From a virus, in IMG/VR virus record IMGVR_UViG_3300007541_000292, positions 1-21,025 of that record: 21,025 bases of DNA. One strand, written 5' to 3'. This document shows, in pieces, positions 2,154 to 8,832 of this stretch. The notes under the pieces are model-generated. The model saw nothing but the letters and a program-made list of their open reading frames with translations. It did not search any database and had not been told where the DNA came from. How positions within the stretch are numbered: the stretch's first letter is position 1; every line of letters starts with the position of its first letter. Position numbers and translations under genes: made by a program.

Positions 2154-3056
2154 TTAAAAGTTGCCAGTTCTATTGCGTTCTTCTTCTCGCTCAAATGCTT
2201 CAGCGTTCTGTCTACTGAAACTAGGAGTAAAGTCATTCATTTCTAAAATGTCATCACGTATGTTCTGCATTTTCTTTTCGATGTGCAATACTCTGGTAAA
2301 ACTATTTGTAATAGCGGCAGTGTAATAAGCAAATGGGTTTTGTGATTTGCTTTCATCAAACTGTAAACCAATTTGTGCTAACTGTAACAATGCTTGGCTA
2401 CGCATCTCATCGTTGTATGTGTATCCACGCCAGTTACTACGAGTAGCATAACGCTCACATAACTTCATAAACATATGAGCCAGTTTGTTAGTCATTTGAC
2501 CATGCTCTTTGTTAAACTCACCAGTCTCTAAGTCACCACGCCAGTGACTTTTACCAACAACATAAGGTTCTAAGTCCTCTGTAACTTTATAGTGAAAGAA
2601 AGGTGGGAAGTTACACTTCACATATTTTGCACGTTCTTTTTTAGCACGTTTGGCAGGATCGGGTTCGTAGTCCTCTTCTTCTTCAATATCCTCGTCGTCT
2701 ACAGTTTCCCCTTCAGGTAATGCTTTTTTATCTTCTTTGAGAGGAATGTGTTCAAACGTCATAACTCTAAACACTAAATCAGTAACAGCTACGCTACTAG
2801 GTTTAAGTTTAAACTCGTCTAGTTTAACCTTGCTTTTAGGGTCACCTAACAGTGCGGCTTCATGTGCTAGTTTAGCAAGCCTGTCTGCACGTAATTTTAA
2901 TGCTTCTTTGACGTTTGTTTTATTAATTTTACCTACATTTGCAACTATCATGTCGTAGTCTGCGTATTCAGGTTGTGTATATGAACAGTAGGTATTTTTA
3001 GATTTGTGTATTTCTTTGAGGATATCTTTGTTGTTAAGATAGTTTTGTCTTCTCAT
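2154..3056 (-). CDS. 55: gp55-like late-transcription sigma factor
   Basis: The 300-aa product resembles T4 gp55 at two places. Its N-terminus (YLNNKDILKEI, residues 6-16) is like T4 YVNNKELLQAI. Residues 211-263 align with the sigma region-2-like core: GYTYNDEMRSQALLQLA, then FDESKSQNPFAYYTAAITNS, where T4 has [20 protein letters not shown]. Family role: it binds host core RNA polymerase and recognises the TATAAATA-type late promoter. It is longer than T4 gp55 (185 aa). The extra length is mainly residues 20-180, including a very acidic stretch (about 115-133) followed by a basic one (135-147). The C-terminus does not show the T4 clamp-binding ending LDFLYE. AAGGA at 3072-3068 (11 nt spacing) supports the start. 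It is the first gene of the minus-strand cluster. Confidence 0.88.
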   Translation of the reverse strand: MRRQNYLNNKDILKEIHKSKNTYCSYTQPEYADYDMIVANVGKINKTNVKEALKLRADRLAKLAHEAALLGDPKSKVKLDEFKLKPSSVAVTDLVFRVMTFEHIPLKEDKKALPEGETVDDEDIEEEEDYEPDPAKRAKKERAKYVKCNFPPFFHYKVTEDLEPYVVGKSHWRGDLETGEFNKEHGQMTNKLAHMFMKLCERYATRSNWRGYTYNDEMRSQALLQLAQIGLQFDESKSQNPFAYYTAAITNSFTRVLHIEKKMQNIRDDILEMNDFTPSFSRQNAEAFEREEERNRTGNF

Positions 3057-3086
3057 GCTAATATTTATCCTTCTTTATATTAGCAT

Positions 3087-3115
3087 ATTATAAAGCCAAT
3101 AAATACTAAAAGCAA
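3087..3115 (-). promoter_or_regulatory. putative sigma70-type promoter for gp55
   Basis: On the minus strand TTGCTT (3115-3110, 3/6) lies 17 bp before a perfect TATAAT (3092-3087). The predicted start near 3080 leaves a leader of about 24 nt containing AAGGA (3072-3068) before the gp55 ATG. The -35 box overlaps the plus-strand late-promoter block at 3098-3112. The -10 and spacing are good, the -35 is weak. Confidence 0.5.
3098..3112 (+). promoter_or_regulatory. putative T4-type late promoter for the gp48-gp53-hub operon
   Basis: AATAAATACTAAAAG contains AATAAATA, a 7/8 match to the T4 late consensus TATAAATA recognised by gp55. The identical 15 nt occurs at 10366-10380 before gp6, and I found no other copy in the window. 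The start would fall about 50 nt before the gp48 ATG, which has AAAGGA at 3149-3154. Because it is duplicated upstream of two late structural genes I favour a real promoter over chance. Confidence 0.65.
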
Positions 3116-3160
3116 TAAAATTAAAGAGTTACAAGTTTGAATTTTACCAAAGGATAGATA

Positions 3161-4306
3161 ATGGCTAAAACAAGAGGGACGTCGTCTAAAGGAAGATCAG
3201 CGGCAGATACTGCTCGTTTCAATCCTATGCAACAAAATCGTCCTCCTATAGGCGGTAAAGGCACAGGAAATTTTAATCTTGCCGACATGGGTAGAGGCCT
3301 ACAAGGATTGGGCGGCAAGGCCAAGGATCTAATAAGCAATCCCAGTCTTTCTAGATTAAACATCAACGGACTTGTGCCTGGAGGTTTTGGTAAACAGGGT
3401 GGCATGTCTCCCGACATATTCTTTGGCTCTGCTGATAGTGGCACAGGCGCAATTACTCCAGACAACGACTGGAGAGTTAGAGTTACAGCCGCTCCCGCAG
3501 GTCCTTTTACATTTGAAGGACCTATGACAGCACTTGCTAGTGATAGAGGGGTAGTGTTCCCCTATACACCTAATTTACAAATTAATCATAATGCCAATTA
3601 TGGTAGTGTAGCGCCTACACATAGTAACTACCCAAGTTATTTTTATCAGAATAGTGCAGTACAGGCTATTACAATAAGTGCAGACTTTACAGCCCAGGAC
3701 ATATCGCAAGCAGAGTACGTATTAGGAATGATATGGTTCTTTAGATCAGCAACAAAAATGTTTTATGGCGGGCCTAAGTCAGGCAATCCTCCACCAATTG
3801 TTTACCTAGACGGTTACGGAGAGTGGCATTTACCACACGTCCCATGTGTGGTTACAAGTTTTAGCCACACTATGCCACCAAATATTGATTATATAGAATG
3901 TATTGTTGCTAACGGTCCTATAACAAGTATAACTGATAATGTGGCGTCAGGTGACTCAGTGCCGCAAACAGTATCAACACAACCACAACCCGCCCCTGAG
4001 CCAAAACCGGTTGCTCCAATACAAACAGGTCTGGCAACTACAACTACCGCAAATCAAACTGGTGTAGCTACGGGTTTAGCTACCAGTACTTCTACTCTTA
4101 GTAATCAGCAGGGAGCAGTGGTGTCACTCACACCTAAGGTAGAGACAACAGTACAATCAACAGGCAAAACAGCAAGAATACCTACTAAGTCTTCTATATC
4201 ATTAACGTTACAGCCTGTTTATAGCAGAAGGAACATTTCTCAGAAATTTAACTGGGAAGATTTCAGTACAGGTAACCTACTAAAAGGTTCTGGAGGATTT
4301 TTATAA
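3161..4306 (+). CDS. 48: gp48-like baseplate tail-tube cap/initiator protein
   Basis: This 381-aa protein is similar in length to T4 gp48 (364 aa). Residues 1-90 are a Gly/Ser/Lys-rich low-complexity leader, including GRSAADTAR at 11-19. Residues about 95-255 form a compact domain with WRVRVTAAP and AEYVLGMIWFFRSATKMFYG, of the gp48/gp54 tube-cap type. Residues 256-340 are a Pro/Thr/Gln linker. The end ISLTLQPVYSRRNISQKF resembles the T4 gp48 ending. Family role: it sits on the hub and starts tail-tube polymerisation. The gene is first in the plus-strand operon, has SD AAAGGA and overlaps gp53 by one base (TAATG). The gp48 versus gp54 choice rests on the adjacent gp53 and is less sure than the family. 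The leader repeat recurs at the end of the 885-aa ORF. Confidence 0.75.
   Translation: MAKTRGTSSKGRSAADTARFNPMQQNRPPIGGKGTGNFNLADMGRGLQGLGGKAKDLISNPSLSRLNINGLVPGGFGKQGGMSPDIFFGSADSGTGAITPDNDWRVRVTAAPAGPFTFEGPMTALASDRGVVFPYTPNLQINHNANYGSVAPTHSNYPSYFYQNSAVQAITISADFTAQDISQAEYVLGMIWFFRSATKMFYGGPKSGNPPPIVYLDGYGEWHLPHVPCVVTSFSHTMPPNIDYIECIVANGPITSITDNVASGDSVPQTVSTQPQPAPEPKPVAPIQTGLATTTTANQTGVATGLATSTSTLSNQQGAVVSLTPKVETTVQSTGKTARIPTKSSISLTLQPVYSRRNISQKFNWEDFSTGNLLKGSGGFL
3191..3207 (+). repeat. 17-bp direct repeat, copy 1 (GRSAA peptide codons in gp48)
   Basis: GGAAGATCAGCGGCAGA is identical at 7225-7241, same orientation and same reading frame. The following GCTCGT is also shared after a few changed bases, giving GRSAADTAR here and GRSAAETAR there. 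The copies flank gp48-gp53-885-aa ORF, about 4.0 kb apart. Confidence 0.85.
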
Positions 4307-4611
4307 TGGCTGTTACCTATAAAAAATCTAGTCCTTATTTTGATACAAAAATTGTAAATGGAAAATATCTTGATGTTTTAAGTATGCGTAGAATACCATC
4401 TAACAAAGGTGATACTACCTATACAATAACAGATACATATCAGTATAGACCAGACTTACTGGCATTTGACCTTTATAAGGATCCTGATCTATGGTGGGTT
4501 TTCGCAGTAAGAAATCCAAACACACTTAAGGATCCTATATTTGACTTTAACTCAGGGACAACAATTTACATTCCCAACCAGGACACTATTAACAAAGCAT
4601 TAGGGATATAA
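4306..4611 (+). CDS. 53: gp53-like baseplate wedge protein
   Basis: The 101-aa product starts MAVTYKKSSPYFDTKIV and contains LYKDPDLWWVFAVRNPN (about residues 56-72) followed by GTTIYIPNQDTI near the C-terminus. This Trp-rich core and the IYIP ending are typical of the T4 gp53 / LysM-like wedge family, although the protein is about half the length of T4 gp53 (196 aa), as I recall being usual for marine relatives. Role in T4: gp53 joins neighbouring wedges round the hub. The start is supported by GGAGG at 4292-4296 and one-base overlap with gp48. The 885-aa ORF follows after 3 nt, so translation is probably coupled. Confidence 0.85.
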   Translation: MAVTYKKSSPYFDTKIVNGKYLDVLSMRRIPSNKGDTTYTITDTYQYRPDLLAFDLYKDPDLWWVFAVRNPNTLKDPIFDFNSGTTIYIPNQDTINKALGI

Positions 4612-4614
4612 CCT

Positions 4615-7272
4615 ATGGCGGGCCTTCAGGATCAATTTAAAACAAGGAGCGGACCTTTAACAGAGAAAGAACTTAAAGGCGCAACTCGTGATAACAGACC
4701 TAGAAGTGGTACGTTTGATTTCCATAATCCAGGAGGAACAAGACCTAAATCTGTGGCATCTAGTAACGGAAATGATGTTGGTCGAAAGTTTGACGGCAGA
4801 CTTATTAATAATCAAACAGATTTAACAAACGGCACAGAACCTGAAACTGTAGGCACAAATCCGTTTTTTAATAAAGATAATACACCAGATGATCTAAGTG
4901 GTTCTGTCAATAACACCAGCGCACTAGACCCTGCAGGAACATTTGATCCTTCAGGTAAAAAAGCATTTGGAGCTCAAAAAGAAAGTGCAATTAGACCAAA
5001 TCCTCTAAACAACTATAGCTCGTATACCTATAACATTAAACTAGGTTTAATGACACCTCAAATGTTGAATGAGTTCAGTGAAGGAAATTATGCATCCTTG
5101 AATAATAATTTGCTTATAAGTTCTGGTGGCATGGATTCAAGCCAACGTGCTGAAGGGTTCGAAGTAGATTTTTACATCGATAACTTATCTATTCAAAGTA
5201 TAATAGGTCTTAACCAAATGACAGGTGGAGCGAATGCCACTGAAATAACATTTACTATTACAGAACCTAACGGTGTTACATTTTTTAATAGACTGTTAAA
5301 ACTTTGTAGATCAACAGGCATTAAAAATTATTTAGATGTACCATATTTCTTGAAAGTACAGTTCCAGGGATACAAAGATACTGACGATAATGAGCCAGAT
5401 CAATCATTGGTCCCATTTATAACACCAATTAAAATAACAGGTATTAACAACAGAGTTACTGTCGAGGGCGGTGTATACGATGTAGAGGCAGTTGCATTTT
5501 ACGATAGTGCATTGTTTTCGACCGAATGTTCCATACACGAAACATTTAGTGGCAAAGCCGCAACGGTAGGAGAGTTTTTTGACAAACTTACAGAATTTTA
5601 TAACAACTATTACAAGAATGCGTTAATATCACAGTCTAAAGGTAATACCCAGACTGATATATCAGAAGAATATTATCACACAATAAAATTTGAAATAGAC
5701 GAAGAGATTAGGAACAGTCCTATTAAATTTAATCTAGATGTGAAAGATGCAGATAAGGCAGCAATGTCCGATGCGGCAAAGTCTGGAAGTGGTTTCCAAG
5801 CCACTGCGGCTAAGGCAATGACGGATAGGAAATTAAAACTACATCTTACCGATATTAATCTTAATTTTCCTTCCGGCTCAAACATCATAAAAATAATTAA
5901 TCAGGTTATTATACAACAAAGTAACTATATTAAAAGTCAGAAAATAGAGCCTGAAGAAAGAAAACGTTTAGAAAATATTAGTGACAAAGACAAGAGGAAG
6001 GAAGCACTAGAAGAGTTATCTGCGAAATACCAGGACACATTAAAGTGGTTTAAAATAAAAAATAAAAAACTTATTAAACAATTTAACATAGACACACAGA
6101 AATATTCTAGGACTAATACATTTGTAATTTCTAAATATGAAATAACAAATAAAACTGTACCCACGTACCCAGGTTGGGGAGAAACTAAGCCAGTAAAAAA
6201 TTACAAGTACATTTACACTGGCGAAAACGATTCTGTATTGGACTTTAATATTAAATTTGATGCATTGTACTATCAAGCAATGATTCCTAATCCTGATCAG
6301 TACAGAATAGCTTCAGGGAAGCCAGATGATTCTGGGGATCCTAGAACTAAACACAGTAAGCAAAATGCAGACGATAATGATACCTCTGGTGGCATTGCAC
6401 CAGCACAGCAGAATGCAGTCCCTCCTTCTATAGAATCTGGACAAGGATCTGATAAAGCAGACTACCAACAGCAGGACGATAGAATACTACAAGAAAATTT
6501 ATATACAAACGCAAAAGGTGACATGGTCGAACTTGACTTAAAGATAATTGGTGATCCTGACTTTTTAGTTGGTTACAACGAAGCTGACTTTGCCGGGGAA
6601 AACATGAATTTACTCTCAAAAGCTGATGAGATCAACTGTAATGTCTTGTTTAAAACACCTCAAGACTATGATGATGATACAGGTTTGTTGGTAGACGAGA
6701 ATGATCCGTTTTTTGTTAACAGCGCATTCAGTGGAGTCTATAAAATTATAATGGTACAAAGTTCTTTTAGTAATGGACAGTTTATACAAGACCTTAATAT
6801 GGTAAGATTGTTTAATCAGCCTGGTGTAGGTGTAGAGACTAAGAAGGAAGTTACAAAAACAGCAGATAATGTTGTACAAGGTGTAAATGGAGTATTTCCT
6901 GGGTCTGGAGTTTCTAATTCTACTGAAACTAAAACAGGTCTAGAAACTAACGAGAGTACAGCATCAGTATCGGACACCCCACCAGCAAACACTACTAGAA
7001 CAGGTTTAGGCACAGCGGCTAACGTTTCGCAGTCTAATGGTTCCACAGTATTCGCAGGATTAGGATCCGTACCTCCAGCCGACGGTCCAGCAACAGTTTC
7101 TACTCAACCTGGACAAACATCATTAACTAATAGCCAGGCACATAGGGTTAGTAATGGAGGCCCTACCATTAATGATCAATTTAGAACAAGAGGTCGCGGA
7201 AAAGATGCCGCTAATAAGTCTACAGGAAGATCAGCGGCAGAAACAGCTCGTAATAATCCATTAGCACGGTAA
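4615..7272 (+). CDS. large baseplate protein, probable hub (gp27-like) candidate
   Basis: I do not recognise the full 885-aa protein, but its layout points to a baseplate hub. Residues 1-132 are low complexity. Residues 133-300 hold beta-rich segments such as FEVDFYIDNLSIQSIIG and ATEITFTITEPNGVTFF, like the first beta domain of gp27/VgrG-type hubs. Residues 443-490 form a charged helical stretch. About 590-640 is a polar linker, and 700-735 (FSGVYKIIMVQSSFSNGQF) resembles the closing strands of hub proteins. Residues 737-852 are Ser/Thr/Gly-rich, and the last 30 residues repeat a motif seen at its own N-terminus (DQFKTR / DQFRTR) and at the gp48 N-terminus. It lies immediately before gp5, where a hub would be expected, and no other gp27 candidate is visible. 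T4 gp27 is only 391 aa. Alternatives include another baseplate or tail structural protein. Confidence 0.45.
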   Translation: MAGLQDQFKTRSGPLTEKELKGATRDNRPRSGTFDFHNPGGTRPKSVASSNGNDVGRKFDGRLINNQTDLTNGTEPETVGTNPFFNKDNTPDDLSGSVNNTSALDPAGTFDPSGKKAFGAQKESAIRPNPLNNYSSYTYNIKLGLMTPQMLNEFSEGNYASLNNNLLISSGGMDSSQRAEGFEVDFYIDNLSIQSIIGLNQMTGGANATEITFTITEPNGVTFFNRLLKLCRSTGIKNYLDVPYFLKVQFQGYKDTDDNEPDQSLVPFITPIKITGINNRVTVEGGVYDVEAVAFYDSALFSTECSIHETFSGKAATVGEFFDKLTEFYNNYYKNALISQSKGNTQTDISEEYYHTIKFEIDEEIRNSPIKFNLDVKDADKAAMSDAAKSGSGFQATAAKAMTDRKLKLHLTDINLNFPSGSNIIKIINQVIIQQSNYIKSQKIEPEERKRLENISDKDKRKEALEELSAKYQDTLKWFKIKNKKLIKQFNIDTQKYSRTNTFVISKYEITNKTVPTYPGWGETKPVKNYKYIYTGENDSVLDFNIKFDALYYQAMIPNPDQYRIASGKPDDSGDPRTKHSKQNADDNDTSGGIAPAQQNAVPPSIESGQGSDKADYQQQDDRILQENLYTNAKGDMVELDLKIIGDPDFLVGYNEADFAGENMNLLSKADEINCNVLFKTPQDYDDDTGLLVDENDPFFVNSAFSGVYKIIMVQSSFSNGQFIQDLNMVRLFNQPGVGVETKKEVTKTADNVVQGVNGVFPGSGVSNSTETKTGLETNESTASVSDTPPANTTRTGLGTAANVSQSNGSTVFAGLGSVPPADGPATVSTQPGQTSLTNSQAHRVSNGGPTINDQFRTRGRGKDAANKSTGRSAAETARNNPLAR
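4630..4646 (+). repeat. short repeat encoding DQFKTR at the start of the 885-aa ORF
   Basis: GATCAATTTAAAACAAG here differs by one base from GATCAATTTAGAACAAG at 7174-7190 near the end of the same ORF. The products are DQFKTR (residues 6-11) and DQFRTR (854-859). It belongs to the repeated tail peptide that also includes GRSAA(D/E)TAR. Confidence 0.7.
7225..7241 (+). repeat. 17-bp direct repeat, copy 2 (GRSAA peptide codons at the end of the 885-aa ORF)
   Basis: Identical to 3191-3207 and in the same frame, encoding GRSAAETAR at residues 871-879 of the hub candidate, 6 residues before its C-terminus. Flanking residues (TRG before, NP after) are also shared with the gp48 N-terminus, so the homology extends beyond the exact 17 bp. 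Confidence 0.85.
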
Positions 7273-7290
7273 ACATCAAGGAAATAATTA

Positions 7291-8832
7291 ATGGCAGTTA
7301 AAAATTCAGAAAATTTTGCATCAACTAAAAACTTTAGTACCGTACAGACTGGTGACTTAATTAGCGCAGGTCCTTATGTTGCTATAGTGAAAAATAATAT
7401 AGATTACACTCGTAATGGCAGGTTAGAAGTTTACATACCAGCATTAGGTGCTATTGACCCTGATGATCCCAAAGGCTGGATAATTTGTCAGTATGCAAAT
7501 CCGTATATGGGTTTTACAAATCTGAATCAAGCGTCATCAGCGGAAGACTACGATGCAGTACAACAAAGTTATGGCATGTGGGCAGTGCCACCTGATATAG
7601 GAATACGTGTTTTAGTTGTATTTGCTGAGCATGATATTAACCAAGCATTTTGGCTAGGTACCGTACCTGAGCCACTTAAAAATCACATGGTCCCAAGTAT
7701 AGGATCAAGAGCATACGCAGATGCATCTGGATCTGCGGTAGATTTCAGTGCATTGGCCGATTATCAGAGCGAAATTTTAAAAAACGCAGTAATGGAGAGT
7801 CTGGAAAGTTATTTTGAAGAAAGCCAAGATACTACTGGTCTAAAGTTTCCTATGTCTGAGGTACAATTCAAAGCAAAAGACAAACAGGACATAGAAAACT
7901 TTTATAGTAAAGCTAGAGCAATACACGAGGATGTAGCCAAGCAATTTCTAATACAAGGACTAGACAGAGATAAAGACAGAGGTCCTATATCAAGTAGTGC
8001 GCAGAGAGAAACACCTAGCAATGTATTTGGTGTTATTACACCTGGCCGTTTAAGAAAAGACCTAGCCGCTGATTTAAATCTTATTAATAAGGCAAAGCAG
8101 GGAGAGTTAACCGAGGAAGATGTAAAAGAGTACATCAATAAAGGTGATAAAGGTAGAAGAGGAGGACACAGTCTTACAATGGATGATGGTGACATTGTAG
8201 GACAGAACAACTTAATTCGTCTTAGAACTGCACGTGGTCATCAGATTACAATGCATGACACTGAAGAGTTTATTCACATAACACATGCTAATGGATTAGC
8301 CTGGATAGAAATAGATTCTAGAGGACAGATATCTATCTTTAGTAATAACAGTCTTAATATTAGAACAGGATTAGATTTAAATTTACGTGCAGATAGAGAT
8401 ATTAATATAGAAGCAGAAGACACTATAAGGCTACGTGGCAAAAAGTTTATTAAAGCAGAAACTGATGACTTACGTATTAAAACATTTAAGGACACGAATT
8501 TAGAACATGGTGGAGACTTAACTATACTAGCAGACGGTGGTATAGCCCTAAATGCCGCTAACTCGTCTGGTTGGAATTCAGGCGGTACACTTAATCTACA
8601 GGCTCCTACAATTAATTTAAACAGTGGAGCTGGTCCTGATAGTCCTGAAGTTCCTGAGATAGAAAAAGAAAAATATACCGATGTTTTACAGGAAGGTTTT
8701 ATCTGGAAAGAAGAGGAAGAGCCCAGTATAGAAAGTATATTAGAATGGATACCAACACACGAGCCATATCCTAGAAGGATATTAGCAAAATCAGCACAGC
8801 AAATAGCTGAGTTTTACCAAGGATTACTCTAA
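7291..8832 (+). CDS. 5: gp5-like baseplate hub/spike protein lacking a lysozyme domain
   Basis: The 513-aa protein has an OB-fold-like N-terminus (about 20-135: PYVAIVKNNIDYTRNGRLEV, PPDIGIRVLVVFAEHD, QAFWLGTVPE), as in gp5/VgrG spikes. A charged helical segment follows (about 150-290). The C-terminal part (about 295-445) is a repetitive beta region (LNIRTGLDLNLRADRDINIE) matching the triple-stranded beta-helix of the needle. Family role: the trimer forms the membrane-piercing tip under the tube. The T4 lysozyme domain, expected between OB-fold and helix, is not visible: I see no ExxR/IGIGHL-type catalytic region. The last 65 residues are acidic, then IPTHEPYPRRI. The start is supported by AAGGA at 7278-7282. 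The stop overlaps the next ATG by one base. Confidence 0.85.
   Translation: MAVKNSENFASTKNFSTVQTGDLISAGPYVAIVKNNIDYTRNGRLEVYIPALGAIDPDDPKGWIICQYANPYMGFTNLNQASSAEDYDAVQQSYGMWAVPPDIGIRVLVVFAEHDINQAFWLGTVPEPLKNHMVPSIGSRAYADASGSAVDFSALADYQSEILKNAVMESLESYFEESQDTTGLKFPMSEVQFKAKDKQDIENFYSKARAIHEDVAKQFLIQGLDRDKDRGPISSSAQRETPSNVFGVITPGRLRKDLAADLNLINKAKQGELTEEDVKEYINKGDKGRRGGHSLTMDDGDIVGQNNLIRLRTARGHQITMHDTEEFIHITHANGLAWIEIDSRGQISIFSNNSLNIRTGLDLNLRADRDINIEAEDTIRLRGKKFIKAETDDLRIKTFKDTNLEHGGDLTILADGGIALNAANSSGWNSGGTLNLQAPTINLNSGAGPDSPEVPEIEKEKYTDVLQEGFIWKEEEEPSIESILEWIPTHEPYPRRILAKSAQQIAEFYQGLL

Follow-up and report, generated by a model that had tools for sequence, protein, structure and literature searches.

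We find that two baseplate proteins encoded on a 21,025-base fragment from an uncultured virus record (IMG/VR record IMGVR_UViG_3300007541_000292; this whole stretch is called the window) carry nearly the same short peptide, placed in the N-terminal tail of a gp48-like tube-initiator candidate and at the C-terminal end of a gp27/VgrG-like hub protein. The peptide, 12 residues of the form GRSAA[DES]TA[RA]xNP, also occurs on tail proteins of related viruses, and the end peptides change more slowly than the adjacent linkers and often more slowly than the folded core, so that there is constraint at the protein level in the relatives. Judging from the sequences, we hold it to be an evenly balanced proposition that this is a short docking tag on the flexible tails of stacked tail-axis proteins. 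A first-pass annotation of the same DNA had proposed a docking or processing tag on unfolded tails as one explanation of the repeat, and docking is the best-supported reading, given the low-confidence ends of the predicted models, the motif on proteins of the related loci L020, L072 and L015, the constraint, and the recurrence of a shared end peptide in the loci L036, L039 and L043.

In the window the first copy of the tag, GRSAADTARFNP, occupies gp48 residues 11-22 (3191..3226, plus strand), within a low-confidence N-terminal tail, and the second, GRSAAETARNNP, occupies hub residues 871-882 (7225..7260, plus strand). When the first 45 residues of the gp48-like protein are compared with the last 45 of the hub, the score is 57, which none of 3000 shuffles reaches (null maximum 55), and the earlier observation that the gp48 N-terminal peptide recurs at the hub C-terminus is thereby borne out. 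At the DNA level, a repeat search gives a 42-nucleotide direct repeat, 86% identical (copy 1 at 3184..3225 and copy 2 at 7218..7259, plus strand), of which the 17-bp string GGAAGATCAGCGGCAGA, identical at 3191 and 7225, is a part; the top direct-repeat score in 2901-7600 is 25, compared to a maximum of 17 among 200 dinucleotide shuffles. At 9 of the 11 shared residues the codon is identical in both copies (4.1 expected, P = 0.003), the rare GCG included, which suggests that DNA was copied between the two places and that the likeness is more than one of protein.

The first-pass annotation had also pointed to DQF(K/R)TR at both ends of the hub: LQDQFKTR at the N-terminus (residues 4-11; 4624..4647, plus strand) and DQFRTRG near the C-terminus (residues 854-860; 7174..7194, plus strand). 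Its strings and coordinates are correct, both for the 17 bp and for GATCAATTTAAAACAAG, which differs by 1 base between 4630 and 7174 (16 of 17 matching). The protein likeness is present as described and is not beyond chance taken alone: 168 of 3000 shuffles reach its score of 31, for which reason we rejected it as a second independent repeat. LQDQFKT is retained in the hub N-terminal tail of L020, with 6 of 7 codons the same, and similarity between the two hub ends is absent in the related loci L003 and L017 (scores 19 and 17).

The carriers of the tag can be placed by fold and position. The gp48-like protein (381 residues; 3161..4306, plus strand) matches phrog_12050 (E = 4e-37), has a tube or initiator fold and is encoded beside the gp53 and hub genes; its best Foldseek matches are baseplate initiators of cyanophage A-1(L) and baseplate proteins of extracellular contractile injection systems (eCIS), with T4 chains of 5iv5 matching weakly (E ~0.04). 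Its model is of low confidence at residues 1-13 and 16-60, and again in 262-323 apart from one gap. The hub (885 residues; 4615..7272, plus strand) matches phrog_11190 (E = 5e-27) and has 39 Foldseek matches in the PDB at E <= 0.001, the best solved ones being an eCIS spike, VgrG and T4 gp27 (E from 6.5e-8 to 1.5e-5). Its model is modest, with a mean predicted local distance difference test (pLDDT) score of 55.7 and long tails, residues 1-124 and 736-885 (the last 150), below pLDDT 50. Both PHROG families are filed under 'head and packaging'; it is gene order and fold that place their window members in the baseplate. In T4, the gp27-type hub is defined as a trimer with a pseudo-sixfold barrel ring, lying under the gp48-type hexamer (PMC3004832). 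By analogy, and from the models, the two tag-bearing proteins would stack one on the other with the tag on their low-confidence tails.

The first-pass annotation suggested looking for GRSAA(D/E)TARxNP in related phages, and noted that its absence from all relatives would mark a recent accidental duplication. We scanned IMG/VR at the level of exact codons with two patterns. GRSAAxTAxxNP gives 6 stretches, of which 4 lie on gp48, hub or tube-like proteins; the remaining 2 fall in short stop-to-stop frames and are judged to be chance. SAA[DE]TARxNP gives 8, 2 on such proteins and 6 judged chance by frame or residue. Coding sequence of these proteins bears the motif in four records, so relatives do carry it: the window's virus, with two copies; L020 and L072, both with MAKTRGTSSTGRSAASTAAMNPM at the gp48 N-terminus; and L015, where it stands at residues 460-471 in a linker of a 626-residue tube-like protein whose gene adjoins tube and sheath genes. 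Against this tube-like protein the hub C-terminus scores 69 and the gp48 N-terminus 73, each unmatched in 3000 shuffles; L015 retains the tag peptide but writes it in different codons, with many synonymous changes. The gp48 tags of the window and L020 share 12 of 17 codons, where 6.5 are expected (P = 0.006). Both N-termini, of gp48 and of the hub, are in hand for five distinct viruses (L071 is counted with L017, being identical over 1366 nucleotides). In two, the window and L020, the motif is at the gp48 N-terminus; the other three (L003, L017/L071 and L073) lack it there and instead have MADGLSAAQQ[KR]RLNP at the hub N-terminus.

The constraint is visible along the length of each protein. 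Between the gp48 proteins of the window and L020, 19 of the first 23 residues are identical, compared to 10 of the 27 aligned in residues 24-60 and 138 of 195 in the core (61-260). The hubs of L003 and L017 agree at 15 of the first 16 residues, 16 of 83 in residues 17-100, 294 of 598 in the core (101-700) and 20 of the last 24; the hub ends of the relatives are conserved peptides too, but different ones. The slower change of the ends has an exception in the gp48 proteins of L071 and L073, which lack the tag: their N-termini agree at 17 of 23 residues, proportionally fewer than the 133 of 150 in the core. A second conserved segment, SNGS[ST]VF[AT]GL, lies in the hub C-terminal tail (window 6820-7269; L020, L003 and L017) and is doubled in L020; in distant hubs the C-terminal end reads ..NIFAGG, ..TVFAGS or ..SVFNGYP. 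A resemblance of N-terminal to C-terminal ends in the relatives, of the generic form 'L[ST]xAQ', was dropped, as we take it to be a common helix-start pattern.

How common are such shared ends? For 52 baseplate-centred loci we took the 45 residues at each end of every gene product and scored the ends against one another, 6898 pairs in all, where shuffled pairs reach no more than 47; the loci are centred on hub or gp6, with near-duplicates left out by eye, and over-represent baseplate genes by design. Five pairs score at least 50. Two come from both ends of a single gene pair in L029, which we take to be TnpB-like. Each of the remaining three includes a hub end: the C-termini of the hub and a gp5-like protein in L039 (AGKVWDDNLGDYI and AGKEWDDNLGDYI, score 69), the gp48 N-terminus and hub C-terminus of the window (57), and the two ends of the L036 hub (55). 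In more distant relatives a different peptide, VWDDNLGDY, is arranged likewise at the ends of hub and gp5-like proteins. WDDNLG[DE]Y occurs 5 times, in 3 of the 9 records searched (L036, L039 and L043), in every case at a hub or gp5-like end, and the gp5-like C-terminus bears its lineage's tag in L039 and L043. The codons of the two L039 copies are not alike beyond chance (7 of 11, with 5.4 expected).

Other proteins share ends as well. In L158 (6385-7926) and L160 (4913-6526), the protein that follows the gp5-like one has the same peptide of 50-52 residues, ..IVWDR.N.ERLRRGLPSL..IGYPRPP.., near both of its ends (scores 201 and 212); the protein has no PHROG match, and the 52-residue peptide of L160 has no tblastn match in named phages. 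In the regions compared from T4, PA5oct, Atu_ph07 and Phosso, and in the 289-kb relative G002, other shared-end pairs appear, including T4 gp9/gp10 (score 77) and several that are fibre-like or paralogous; end sharing is therefore not confined to hubs. Neighbouring G002 genes (L078:2966-3352 and 3362-5377) share an N-terminal INIG..NDGTGD..R.A.DK.NDNF.E.Y that resembles the N-termini of T4 gp9 and gp10.

If the peptide is a docking tag, its carriers would be the gp27-like hub, as a trimer, and the gp48-like ring, as a hexamer, joined in one relative by another tube-like protein; the oligomeric states are those of T4. One partner in the core of the baseplate, perhaps a gp53-like protein, the tape measure or an assembly factor, would read the tag, so that it would matter that the components have it and matter less at which end. 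The tags look like interchangeable pieces for tail assembly, copied or exchanged between protein ends, and in the window's lineage the tag would have been added to the hub C-terminus later, by local DNA copying. The gp53-like gene of the window (101 residues; 4306..4611, plus strand; PF11246, E = 1.4e-4; phrog_7145, E = 2.3e-26) sits between the two tag-bearing genes, and its product is a candidate for the partner. A more specific and rather doubtful version is that the tag resolves the mismatch between threefold and sixfold symmetry: the partner, for which the gp53-like protein is a natural candidate, would be present in six copies with one pocket each, and these pockets would take their tags in alternation from the hub trimer and the gp48 hexamer, much as the gp16 tails of A-1(L) are arranged (see below). 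On that account the tag could hop among ends and among hub, gp48 and tube-like proteins, while each lineage would keep its own pair of tag and pocket.

Several observations weigh against docking. The hub C-terminal copy is seen in one virus only, that of the window and its near-identical longer record. In G002 no shared hub/gp48 end pair appears among 15279 pairs within pieces, nor does one appear among 10090 pairs in the regions of T4, PA5oct, Atu_ph07 and Phosso. SAAQQ[KR]RLNP resembles the window's gp48 tag no better than 117 of 3000 shuffles do (29 of 3000 for the L015 tail), and because of this the complementary pattern of gp48 and hub N-termini is suggestive only. Finally, low pLDDT in models built on 19-20 sequence alignments is weak evidence for disorder.

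A rival reading is that the second copy does nothing at all. In a recent neutral duplication, illegitimate recombination would have placed a copy of part of the gp48 start at the end of the hub gene, where it would be functionless. This fits the codon likeness of the window copies and the hubs of L020, L003, L017 and L021, which lack a C-terminal copy and end in ..QxG[SN]F[KQ]... We consider this somewhat unlikely: it explains how the second copy arose and leaves unexplained the conservation of the peptide, which persists on the L020 gp48 protein and, despite many synonymous changes, on the tube-like protein of L015, and another shared end peptide recurs on the hub ends of L036 and L039. The terminal position and the low-confidence tails would suit a proteolytic or sorting signal, with the shared end being cut off once a maturation protease or a host factor has recognised it; we found no positive sign of this, no cleavage motif having been looked for, and the L015 copy is internal, so we regard it as improbable. 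Least probable is that the DNA or RNA itself is the signal, for instance a regulatory or recombination site read in frame by chance. The unusual codon identity of the window and L020 gp48 tags speaks for it, but L015 encodes the same peptide in different codons, and the nucleotide core, with up to 4 mismatches allowed, occurs only at these coding sites in the sequences covered (the window, the pieces of G001-G003, L015 and five other loci).

The other proposal of the first-pass annotation, that the repeats bound an exchangeable cassette of roughly 4 kb holding gp48, gp53 and the hub, is very unlikely. Compared gene by gene with the window, 11 sets of loci, including one from the window's own virus, show no jump in identity at the repeats, and none of the relatives is abruptly nearer to the window inside them than outside: window and L020 are 57, 73 and 50% identical in gp48, gp53 and hub, and 64 and 52% in the gp5-like and lysozyme-like genes beyond. 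L020 and L003 keep an unbroken gene order across the region, the window's virus is collinear in its longer record, and the repeat at the hub end is absent from relatives. What favours exchange is that placement of the tag disagrees with the gp6 tree, where the window, with its gp48 tag, groups with L017 of the hub N-terminal type (100/99). The hub tree joins L020 with L003 (87/93) and does not settle the placement, and a single origin of the tag may be compatible with the gp48 tree (the trees have 8 rows for hub, 10 for gp48 and 7 for gp6; the partial L021 is in none and the partial L072 only in the gp48 tree). Because placement departs from the gp6 tree and the gp48-tag codons of window and L020 are unusually alike, exchange on a smaller scale, confined to the tag segments, is possible.

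The same virus is represented by a 65,198-base IMG/VR record (L002, G001), in which the ten genes compared are 99.7-100% identical to those of the window. SbcD-like and late-sigma-like genes on the minus strand are followed by those for the gp48-like protein, the gp53-like protein, the hub, a gp5-like spike/OB protein without the tag (513 residues; 7291..8832, plus strand; phrog_13211, E = 2e-34), a lysozyme-like protein, gp25 and gp6. The closest phages that have names are giant ones, less than 40% identical in gp48 or hub, and relatives were not found in the bacterial genome collection that we scanned. The SbcD-like protein (1104-2117) is 95-98% identical to its counterparts in L020, L071 and L073 and the adjoining sigma-like protein about 80%, which is an unusual step. 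In the 289-kb relative, the SbcC/gp46-like open reading frame (ORF; L003:3332-6390) has an extra 366-residue ORF alongside and what we take to be an intein-like start, the two presumably representing an intein and an endonuclease; the counterpart in the window's virus is an ordinary-looking ORF of 588 residues.

Known short docking peptides are found on receptor-binding proteins, at the exterior of the tail. If the inner hub and the tube initiator of T4-like giant phages do carry such tags, there would be a handle, visible in sequence, on how a trimeric hub joins a hexameric tube. One could then predict the contacts among proteins of the tail core, and the tags could mark hub components in metagenomic phages that have no cultured relative. 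In the literature that we searched, we came across no description of hub proteins that share an end peptide. Interchangeable short end peptides that recruit various proteins to one assembly are familiar from encapsulin targeting peptides and the T4 capsid targeting sequence, which act in the interior of a shell or capsid (in T4, the head) and not at the tail hub. T4 gp9 and gp10, neighbours in the baseplate, likewise have an N-terminal segment in common, but that segment spans about 38 residues, belongs to wedge or fibre proteins and has no C-terminal copies.

Two further systems have been described. A-1(L) has six copies of the LysM protein gp16, which is compared with T4 gp53, and their C-terminal tails alternate between two places, inside the barrel of the hub and on the tube initiator (PMC10966104). 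There too, flexible ends stitch a trimeric hub to a hexameric initiator and the wedge at a symmetry mismatch; the docking tails are those of one protein, however, whereas here the hub and the gp48-like protein carry a common peptide. Short N-terminal peptides attach the receptor-binding proteins of K1-5, K1E, SP6 and Klebsiella phages (PMC6872550), and the likeness lies in a conserved, group-specific end peptide of 7 to 29 residues on different virion proteins of one phage. The window group has a short, group-specific, conserved terminal peptide of this sort, less clearly so for the SAAQQ variant. Theirs sit on tailspikes hung from an adapter or a gp10-like domain, whereas the carriers here are not receptor-binding proteins but an inner gp27-like hub, a gp48-like tube initiator and a tube-like protein, with the peptide at N-termini, C-termini and in a linker. 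Of the kinds described, the N-terminal peptide that attaches receptor-binding proteins is the closest; what sets the present case apart is where in the virion the peptide sits and that either terminus may bear it.

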